A program made the translations under genes and the position numbers. From Echinicola rosea (GTDB taxonomy: Bacteria > Bacteroidota > Bacteroidia > Cytophagales > Cyclobacteriaceae), in assembly GCF_005281475.1 (NCBI RefSeq), contig NZ_CP040106.1, positions 563,501 to 627,500 on the forward strand: a stretch of DNA of 64,000 nucleotides, read 5' to 3'. Positions 58,379 to 60,202 of the stretch are shown here, piece by piece. A model generated the notes under the pieces. The model was not told where the DNA came from. It did no database searches and saw only the letters and a program-made list of their open reading frames with translations. The stretch's first letter is position 1. The number at the start of each line of letters is the position of its first letter.

Positions 58379-58409
58379 TTGTTACTGTGACAAAGTAAGG
58401 CTACCTTTG
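58379..58409 (+). promoter_or_regulatory. Promoter of dciA (TTG - 20 nt - TACCTTTG)
   Basis: TTG at 58379-58381 and TACCTTTG at 58402-58409 have ideal spacing. The box ends 6 nt before the ATG at 58416, so the transcript probably begins at the start codon. Confidence 0.7.
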
Positions 58410-58415
58410 ATTACC

Positions 58416-58730
58416 ATGAAAAAATACCAGGACTATAATCCCCGCAAAAAGGAAATCACACCGCTCAAAGAAGCGTTTGAGGAATTACTTCAAACCTATA
58501 AACTCAAAGACCGCTTTAACGAAAGGAAAATCGTCAGTGCTTGGGGAGAGATGATGGGGAAATCAATCGCCAGCAGAACGTCCAGTATCTATGCCAAGGA
58601 CAAAAAACTTTTCGTAAAGCTAACTTCAGGTCCTATCAAAAAAGAATTGATGATGAACAAGTCACGTATTCTTAACATCATTGAAGAAAAATTCGGAAAA
58701 AACGTGATAGAGGACATCACATTTTTATAA
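58416..58730 (+). CDS. dciA: DUF721 protein, DciA-like replicative helicase loader
   Basis: DUF721 includes DciA, which helps load the replicative helicase DnaB. The 104-residue protein (ATG 58416) shows the KH-like core LKEAFEELLQTYKLKDRFN, IVSAWGEMMGKSIASRTSSI, KKLFVKLTSGPIKKELMMNK and a C-terminal EDITFL. It is shorter than proteobacterial DciA but typical of Bacteroidota members. An in-frame TTG at 58407 lies inside the -7 box and is rejected. Confidence 0.85.
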   Translation: MKKYQDYNPRKKEITPLKEAFEELLQTYKLKDRFNERKIVSAWGEMMGKSIASRTSSIYAKDKKLFVKLTSGPIKKELMMNKSRILNIIEEKFGKNVIEDITFL

Positions 58731-59033: not shown

Positions 59034-59041
59034 TACCTTTG
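59034..59041 (+). promoter_or_regulatory. -7 box (TACCTTTG) of the tRNA-like gene
   Basis: A perfect TACCTTTG lies 34 nt before the tRNA-like 5' end, so a primary transcript would start near 59048 and need 5' processing. The -33 element is not clear. Confidence 0.55.
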
Positions 59042-59074
59042 AGCAATCAAGTAGCCAAAAGGGTTAATCTATAC

Positions 59075-59198
59075 TGTAGGATGTTGAAATTGGCAGACAA
59101 GCCCTCCTGTCTCGGGGGTGGAGATTCTGGGATAAAGCACACATAGAGCTCTTGTGTTGCCTAACTTCTCCGTGGAGGTTCGAGTCCTTCTCCTACAG
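59075..59198 (+). tRNA. tRNA-like RNA gene, class II type with oversized variable region, apparent anticodon GUC
   Basis: A cloverleaf can be drawn. The acceptor stem is TGTAGGA (59075-59081) with TCCTACA (59191-59197). The D arm TTG-AAATTGGCAGA-CAA carries the GG pair at 59092-59093. The anticodon arm is CCCTC-CTGTCTC-GGGGG, with U33 and an apparent GUC at 59109-59111. The T arm is GGAGG-TTCGAGT-CCTTC. The D and T arms resemble tRNA-Leu, but the anticodon would be that of Asp. The variable region (59119-59173) is 55 nt, closed by GGAGA/TCTCC, far above the usual class II size. CCA is not encoded (GCAC follows). It has its own promoter box and terminator. It may be a non-decoding tRNA-like RNA. 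Confidence 0.65.
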
Positions 59199-59218
59199 CA
59201 CTGTGTTAAATTATTTAG

Positions 59219-59283
59219 AGAGAATGTTTTTATGGCAAAGGAGAATGGGCAACCATTATGCATAAAAACGTTCTCTTTTTTTT
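59219..59283 (+). terminator. Strong terminator after the tRNA-like gene
   Basis: A 16-bp stem AGAGAATGTTTTTATG / CATAAAAACGTTCTCT (one G-U pair) with a 26-nt loop is followed by a run of eight T. It begins 20 nt past the tRNA-like 3' end. Confidence 0.85.
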
Positions 59284-59320: not shown

Positions 59321-59459
59321 GGATCCAGCGGAAAAGTTGGGGGCTGCCAGTTTTCTTAATCGCAAAACCACCGTTAAAAAAAAGCCAAAAAGGTATTATG
59401 TTTGAAAAGTGCATGTTTGTCCTGCATTGAAAGATTACACTCGAAAGCTAGCCCCCCGA
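59321..59459 (+). repeat. Dispersed repeat family R2, copy 3 (longest)
   Basis: The left part (GGATCCAGCGGAAAAGTTGG, GCTGCCAGTTTTCTTAAT) matches 717-766. The right part (GTGCATGTTTGTCCTGC, TTGAAAGATTACACTCGAAA, GCTAGCCCCC) matches 10188-10240 in reverse. This copy joins both halves and so shows that they belong to one element of about 140 bp. Confidence 0.72.
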
Positions 59460-60202
59460 GTGGCGACCCATTCTTAGCCATGGGGGAAGACCATAGTAAA
59501 TTTACCCACCCAACGTTCCCCGTTTTAGCCGCATTGACCGCCCGATTCCCCATAACTTCCCGCTAAAACCCATTCGTGCGGATGAAGAAAGACCATCGTT
59601 TTAGCGGCCTAAAATTTTCTTTTAAAAGACCATGTTAACATTCGCCACCCAGAAATAATGCTTGATCCCGCAAAAGTTGGGGGCTGATGGCAGGCTGACA
59701 ACGTAGATGTTTATGATTTGCGCTGTTTTTTTTCCTAAACGGGAAAAGTCTCCAGTCCCGCTTTTGTAATGCGAACTGCTGAGAAAGGCATTTGTAATGC
59801 CTCCATGCAGTGAAGCCTCCAATAAATGGCTTGTCCGTAAGACCAAAAATTAATGCGCAACGGCTAATAGTGACGCCTAATCAGTTCGAAACACTTGTGC
59901 ACGGCTAACCATCGGCCAATACATATATTCGTTTAAGGCATGAATTTTGAGATTGCTTGTAAATATTAAAATTGAAACAAGTAAAGCTTTGGTTTAACTG
60001 TAGCAATAGCAAAAAATCATCTACCGTTAACTTAGAGGACTTGCAACGATTGTAAATATTTGGGAGCTATTCTCTTTTGACTATCTTAGGAAAAGAAACT
60101 CCGTAGTTTTTCAGACTCTATTTTTTAGGGGCTTGTGAACTTTGTCACGTTCAACTTTATTCTAAGTAAAATAAAGTTTATTTTGCTTTATACGGTTAAT
60201 TT
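59460..60202. other. Repeat-rich intergenic region without a gene
   Basis: It contains a further R2-like scrap (59649-59690: CCAGAAATAATGCTTGATCC then CAAAAGTTGGGGGCTG). GAAGACCATAGT-like words recur near 59487, 59586 and 59625, and GTTTTAGC/GCTAAAAC words lie near 59520-59605. Several short open frames occur but none looks coding. 60000-60202 is AT-rich and probably holds the promoter of the next gene; no clear box was found. Confidence 0.5.

Follow-up and report, generated by a model that had tools for sequence, protein, structure and literature searches.

A conserved tRNA-like RNA family of Bacteroidota with aspartate identity elements, associated with GatCAB and an AsnC-like regulator, is a candidate non-decoding carrier for asparagine synthesis

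The cell-wall tRNA-Gly of Staphylococcus is a non-translational tRNA whose amino acid goes to peptidoglycan, and in the asnC-asnA pair of Escherichia coli an AsnC-type regulator is divergent to an asparagine-making gene. Asparagine is also made on tRNA itself in Deinococcus, Thermus and Bdellovibrio, where a non-discriminating AspRS loads tRNA-Asn with aspartate and GatCAB amidates it. In the part available to us, a survey counts Bacteroidetes among 18 genera that have AsnRS, GlnRS and GatCAB and no asparagine synthetase, and makes no mention of a separate RNA for tRNA-dependent asparagine synthesis (PMC4206432). According to the accessible part of PMC9976931, the strong determinants of bacterial AspRS are G73, G34, U35, C36 and C38, with G2-C71 and G10 as minor ones and G1-C72 helping the E. 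coli enzyme, while U1-A72 lets GatCAB amidate Asp-tRNA-Asn, the antideterminants being G1-C72 and U20a.

The window analysed here, 64,000 nt of an Echinicola rosea contig (NZ_CP040106.1), contains a complete class II tRNA-like RNA on the forward strand at 59075–59198, running from U1 to the discriminator G73. It is seen both in the sequence and as a match (59074–59198, 151.4 bits) to R1, a covariance model from 34 relatives with the window genome's own copy among them. A 107-aa ORF lies upstream (58407–58730) and an AsmA-like ORF downstream (60203 on). At 59034–59041 on the same strand, 34–41 nt ahead of U1, stands TACCTTTG, which we take to be a −7 box of the Bacteroidota type (TAnnTTTG motif); in the fetched loci, TAnnTTTG occurs no more than 110 nt upstream of 52 of 94 distinct copies, against an expected 0.057 per copy. 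The RNA is followed, again on the forward strand, by a terminator-like hairpin and T's (59219–59276), with 16-nt arms at 59219–59234 and 59261–59276 that are 94% complementary and a fold z of −3.16. We also noted an 18-nt direct repeat, CGGAAAAGTTGGGGGCTG, further downstream at 59329–59346 and 59669–59686.

All parts of a tRNA can be assigned on the forward strand. The 5′ strand of the acceptor stem, U1 to A7 (59075–59081), forms a perfect 7-bp helix with 59191–59197, after which come G73 at 59198 and C74 at 59199. The D arm (59084–59100) has a 3-bp stem and a loop of the tRNA-Leu type, GAAAUUGGCAGA; its first pair is A-U in 32, G-C in 12, U-A in 11 and something else in 4 of 59 aligned rows. 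The anticodon arm (59102–59118) carries the loop CUGUCUC, with G34 U35 C36 at 59109–59111 and C38 at 59113, and the T arm (59174–59190) reads GGAGG UUCGAGU CCUUC. Between these two arms lies a variable domain of 55 nt (59119–59173) made of a 4-bp closing stem, a conserved internal loop (GGAUAAA / CUAAC) and an inner hairpin with a palindromic GAGCUC loop; in the alignment, distant relatives have a very different length and inner part. The GAGCUC loop is present in most copies of the window's family and is a possible kissing site, whereas copies from the families f23, f24 and f27 often have GGGUUGACCAC instead. Alignments and pair counts show the tertiary signature of a tRNA (cloverleaf, U8, A14, G18 G19 and T-loop) and a branch of 7 + 5 acceptor and T pairs. 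For position counts we used 80 distinct sequences, leaving out five ordinary tRNAs, one 40-nt fragment and one 31-bit match. Because no more than 53 of these 80 have C at position −1 (17 have U and 10 have A), the 7-bp acceptor frame is preferred; the extra pair of an 8-bp acceptor as in tRNA-Sec (C59074 with G73) is not kept. In all 94 distinct copies G73 is followed by C, the base that by eye also follows the discriminator in the genome's 39 ordinary tRNAs; the RNA is therefore probably finished like a tRNA. In the conserved 3′ tail, GGTTATTTTGGGTTTA, we considered the start of a GIY-YIG nuclease gene and rejected it: the reading frame meets a stop codon immediately, and the tail enters the terminator-like hairpin.

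General RNA searches did not pick out this gene. ARAGORN found no tRNA in the whole window, Rfam gave no match at E ≤ 1 within 54–64 kb of the window, and Rfam 15 had no match at the RNA in the loci of 10 relatives; for the tRNA family RF00005, none of the genome's five copies was among the matches listed up to E 10. The single-sequence fold of the RNA is unremarkable (z −0.83), and neither this fold nor RNAalifold chose the tRNA D stem. The cloverleaf thus rests on comparison and not on folding energy. In alignment A1, which comprises 34 distinct copies and was not fitted to R1, 98.5% of cells are paired, 10 pairs show changes in both partners, and 68 covarying cells compare with 21.6 in shuffles (0 of 500 reached this value). 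Alignments A2–A4 were fitted to R1, so that the pair counts of A4 lean towards its structure; in the 59 distinct rows of A4, 97.0% of cells are paired, changes in both partners are seen at 23 of the 33 pairs, and 330 covarying cells compare with 84 in shuffles (0 of 500), while slid structures reached at most 10 pairs and 44 cells. R1 itself scores the window copy at 151 bits, the other clear members at 82–152 and one tandem copy at 73.4, with the best ordinary-tRNA-sized matches at no more than 62.5 bits. A sequence-only reading of this DNA had described a full cloverleaf with a 7-bp acceptor stem, a Leu-like D arm, a GUC anticodon and a 55-nt variable region with its own stem, preceded by a box and followed by a 16-bp terminator. 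Inspection of the sequence bears out each of these features, the terminator as the 16-nt inverted repeat, and covariation supports the fold. Its view that this is an independent tRNA-shaped gene rather than a decayed tRNA likewise agrees with a conserved family whose homologues carry compensatory changes in most stem pairs and whose loci match no described Rfam family at the RNA.

In a DNA search of 98 genomes, comprising the window's own and those of relatives, 79 had matches at E ≤ 0.1, often in several copies, the weakest of which can be ordinary tRNAs. The window genome holds five copies (144–151 bits with R1), followed by ordinary class II tRNAs at no more than 56 bits. Across the phylum, 296 genomes were sampled in a filtered search, and 31 of them had an R1 match scoring 82 bits or more; the next best, at 62.5 bits in G071, was left out as unclear. 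Our RNA-positive set (n = 38) consists of all these 31 genomes and seven more picked after the AsnC adjacency described below had been seen (G019, G026, G032, G063, G067, G074 and G076). The RNA-negative set (n = 31; 15 from the same class, 16 from other classes) was hand-picked, not drawn at random, from the remaining 265 before any gene test, and negative here means not found in the filtered search, in which 11 candidates were scored per genome.

Copies of the RNA do move, since the gene ahead of it in L031–L047 does not adjoin the window copy. We nevertheless rejected a mobile element, as the family had no match in plasmid or phage records and no element was found. Tandem copies about 175 nt apart occur in L013, L016, L017, L026 and other loci, the last copy leading into a conserved tail, GGTTATTTTGGGTTTATTGTTAATTGACTAAAGC, and a terminator-like hairpin. 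Several copies from different genomes contain an inserted palindrome like CCCGATAGCTATCGGG, whose site varies between the D arm, the D loop and the variable domain, as in L017 (1675–1807 and 1855–1987), L069 (1501–1638 and 2057–2206) and L126 (805–973), as though a small repeat of this palindromic kind either targeted these genes or tolerated them. By eye, three of the other four copies of the window genome (L093, L095) lie near SusC-like and sulfatase-like ORFs, and two congeneric genomes have, immediately upstream of the RNA and in its orientation, an ORF that carries a GGQ motif and by eye resembles ArfB (L101, 8628–9392; L102, 7229–8047). A Flavo-1 RNA match slightly below the gathering score (40.7 against 42 bits) was seen in L081 (434–501).

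Certain positions of the RNA do not vary. U1, A72, G2-C71, U3-A70, G73, U35, C36 and C38 are found in 80 of 80 sequences and G34 in 77; outside the 80, A1 contains G33 in 4 and A34 in 1 of its 34 copies. The strong aspartate set is thus kept almost completely. Of the minor elements, G10 with its pair (G10-C25) occurs in only 12 of 59 rows, and G1-C72 is replaced throughout by U1-A72, the GatCAB determinant. As in tRNA-Leu, the D loop is enlarged by additional bases, and the likely position 20a appears to be A, not U. As the pairs below U3-A70 vary freely with compensation, the four of them covarying, the top of the acceptor stem seems to be held for its sequence. The invariance of U3-A70 is explained by none of the Asp or amidotransferase determinants given in the accessible part of PMC9976931.

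The anticodon loop departs from that of a decoding tRNA. Position 33 is U in 64, G in 7, A in 6 and C in 3 of the 80 sequences, and position 37 is U in 75 and C in 5, never a purine. The ordinary tRNAs of the window genome include two tRNA-Asp(GUC) and one tRNA-Asn(GUU). Because U33 is lost in 16 of 80 and position 37 is a pyrimidine in all, the RNA apparently does not decode, which favours the non-decoding role proposed by the sequence-only reading and makes the unusual suppressor that it also considered unlikely.

To characterise the surroundings, we clustered the ORFs of 20 regions and found one broadly recurring neighbour, present in 11 of them, a regulator of the AsnC/Lrp type of 155–167 aa on the other strand. 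In 27 of the 38 RNA-positive genomes (20 of 31 without the seven picked after the adjacency was seen), the start of an AsnC-like gene lies 118–228 nt from the RNA on the other strand. NCBIfam ranked AsnC first for three of these regulators, at 154–182 bits and so under the cut-off of 227, and the best PDB match of one was E. coli AsnC (137 bits; E. coli Lrp, 52). In the window genome the AsnC-like regulator is not by the RNA and sits 24 kb from gatB. Such a neighbour probably adjusts transcription of the RNA to asparagine. G150 lacks both a detected RNA and GatB; there, an AsnC-like gene and an AsnB-like gene (490 bits against a cut-off of 499) diverge from each other across 118 nt. AsnC beside asparagine synthetase genes as a general pattern was rejected, as this was the only case among 17 AsnA/AsnB loci examined.

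We then compared enzyme distributions among RNA-positive genomes (n = 38), RNA-negative genomes of the same class (n = 15) and RNA-negative genomes of other classes (n = 16). GatB exceeded its cut-off in 38/38, 1/15 and 14/16, respectively, AsnRS was present in 38/38, 15/15 and 12/16, and GlnRS in 29/38, 14/15 and 6/16. Where GlnRS and AsnRS coexist, GatB was found in 29 of 29 RNA-positive genomes, in none of 14 RNA-negative genomes of the same class and in 4 of 6 from other classes; the first two counts give a Fisher p of 1.3e-11, related genomes not being independent samples. The same split was seen inside single families, in f23 (five RNA-positive genomes, all with GatB, and one RNA-negative without it) and in f24 (eight and two). 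G138, the sole RNA-negative genome of the class with GatB, has no GlnRS and therefore needs GatCAB for Gln; likewise, the nine RNA-positive genomes without GlnRS, the window's own included, need their GatCAB for Gln anyway. The four genomes of other classes with GatB, GlnRS and AsnRS and no detected RNA (G110, G127, G136 and G170) may rely on a tRNA-Asn route or carry the RNA in a more distantly related form.

Asparagine synthetases were compared across these three sets as well. E. coli-type AsnB was over its cut-off in 0/38 RNA-positive genomes, 9/15 RNA-negative genomes of the same class (among them G126, with internal stops) and 1/16 of other classes; the counts for AsnA were 3/38, 3/15 and 0/16. 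Members of the AsnB superfamily TIGR01536 exceeded the cut-off in 34 of 38 RNA-positive genomes, mostly as longer paralogs in ORFs of at least 600 aa, and some of them could make asparagine. The TIGR01536 ORF of the window genome has 598 aa, begins with MCGV and adjoins an ORF that by eye looks like a glycosyltransferase. Four RNA-positive genomes (G069, G087, G245 and G361) have AsnRS, GlnRS and GatB and neither AsnA nor any AsnB-superfamily member over cut-off. RNA-negative genomes without AsnA or an over-cut-off AsnB also exist (G114, G138, G142 and G211, with G150 just under).

In our reading, which we hold to be probable, the RNA is a dedicated non-decoding tRNA that AspRS would charge with aspartate, on which GatCAB would make asparagine, and whose asparagine would feed metabolism. 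We consider this role the most likely because GatCAB occurs in 29 genomes without a known tRNA client (GlnRS and AsnRS are both present, so that it has no ordinary need there) while the RNA bears both sets of marks, and because E. coli-type AsnB is missing where the RNA is present and the regulator next to it belongs to the asparagine type. What the data show is the RNA family with its structure and conserved elements, the AsnC neighbourhood and the distributions of GatB and AsnB; charging, amidation, escape from the ribosome, Asn release and AsnC control we infer, as follows. The RNA would descend from, or imitate, a tRNA-Leu body and be matured like a tRNA. Ordinary AspRS would load aspartate via G34 U35 C36, C38 and G73, and GatCAB would amidate Asp to Asn, since the RNA has U1-A72 where true tRNA-Asp has G1-C72. 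The odd anticodon loop and the big variable domain would keep Asn-RNA off the ribosome, where Asn would enter at Asp codons. Asn would then be released or handed on, the RNA acting as a reusable carrier and, jointly with GatCAB, substituting for asparagine synthetase, and the AsnC-like neighbour would tune transcription of the RNA to asparagine. The wider proposal is that several Bacteroidota families make asparagine on a purpose-built non-translating tRNA, a reusable RNA cofactor under AsnC control that releases free Asn and replaces asparagine synthetase both genomically and metabolically; we give it about an even chance. The sequence-only reading had arrived at an independent gene, which stands, and at a non-decoding role, which the evidence favours; charging with Leu is not supported, as A73 is replaced by G in 80 of 80 in spite of the Leu-like body and the Asp set is kept, and a link to GatCAB and AsnC was absent from it.

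An RNA charged, and perhaps amidated, in the same way could instead donate Asn or Asp to a lipid, peptide or wall component, or its charged state could be a signal. The identity and GatB evidence is identical for such a donor, its variable domain is structured and conserved within subgroups, as a partner-binding site would be, and at least five copies with tandem arrays suggest that much RNA is needed. We still regard this as unlikely: no transferase-like gene recurs by the RNA in the 20 regions compared, whereas the AsnC-like gene as sole broadly recurring neighbour and the missing AsnB point to asparagine supply. We think it rather less likely again that these genomes use the known indirect route, with a non-discriminating AspRS and GatCAB acting on ordinary tRNA-Asn as in Bdellovibrio, and employ the RNA otherwise, for example in regulating AspRS. 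The Bacteroidetes entry in the survey cited above fits this route, as do U1-A72 in the window genome's tRNA-Asn and the single copy of AspRS in 68 of 69 genomes (two in G032), as in Bdellovibrio. However, it leaves unexplained why GatB follows the RNA (29/29 against 0/14) and why the RNA keeps the Asp set together with U1-A72; moreover, the genome's own tRNA-Asn has by eye U20-U20a in its D loop, like its tRNA-Asp, and U20a is an antideterminant in the accessible part of PMC9976931.

Charging of a class II tRNA by SerRS or LeuRS, akin to allo-tRNAs, appears very improbable. G73 and a long variable arm, the main SerRS signal in the sources as available to us, are present as in tRNA-Ser and allo-tRNAs, the body is Leu-like, and allo-tRNAs with GUC anticodons are on record (PMC7609411, in part). 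In contrast, the accessible part of PMC9976931 (Table 1) gives A73 as the bacterial Leu determinant, which LeuRS requires and which is G73 in all 80 sequences, and C72 and C11-G24 for bacterial Ser, where the RNA has A72 in 80 of 80 and an 11-24 pair that is U-A in 48 and C-G in only 9 of 59; nor would either enzyme explain the fixed GUC with C38 or the link to GatB. A tRNA-Asp or tRNA-Asn variant active in translation is the least credible of all despite GUC in 77 and U33 in 64 of 80, given the loss of U33 in the other 16, the absence of a purine at 37, a variable domain of about 40–105 nt, two normal tRNA-Asp genes in the genome and the placing of Asn at Asp codons if the RNA were amidated.

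We return to the RNA as a carrier for asparagine synthesis. A search of the open-access literature turned up no report of this RNA family. Both tRNA-dependent Asn synthesis and tRNA-like RNAs are already known, while a non-decoding carrier for Asn synthesis is apparently undescribed as far as could be seen. If true, an RNA withdrawn from translation would serve as the carrier in an amino-acid pathway; this would account for the retention of GatCAB in bacteria with AsnRS and GlnRS, and would supply the asparagine step that is missing from genomes of otherwise auxotrophic appearance. Even with another function, a conserved, covarying tRNA-like family tied to GatCAB and missed by ARAGORN and Rfam would be new.

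Compared with known systems, the RNA shares with the tRNA-Leu of its own genome the class II shape, the D-loop signature and a junction of one unpaired base and U48 ahead of the T arm, and differs from it in G73 for A73, U1-A72, a fixed GUCUC/GUCCC loop and a several-fold longer variable region. Like the cell-wall tRNA-Gly of Staphylococcus it would be a tRNA reserved for metabolism, with the difference that an Asp-to-Asn conversion is proposed on the RNA itself. The arrangement recalls E. coli asnC-asnA in its divergent AsnC-type regulator, except that an RNA gene takes the place of asnA. Allo-tRNAs, class II tRNAs with 8/4 or 9/3 branches, have a similar shape and unusual anticodons including GUC in the accessible part of PMC7609411; in contrast to them, the RNA has a 7/5 branch, a Leu-type D arm, no Ser determinants, a link to GatB and AsnC, and a U33 that is not kept. 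The closest parallel is tRNA-dependent Asn synthesis, which also places Asp on an RNA for amidation by GatCAB (both proposed here), uses U1-A72 and occurs in genomes with AsnRS, often without AsnA or AsnB. Unlike in that system, the carrier here would be an RNA of its own that combines an Asp anticodon with a Leu-like body and a large variable domain; it would take no part in decoding and could do without a non-discriminating AspRS.
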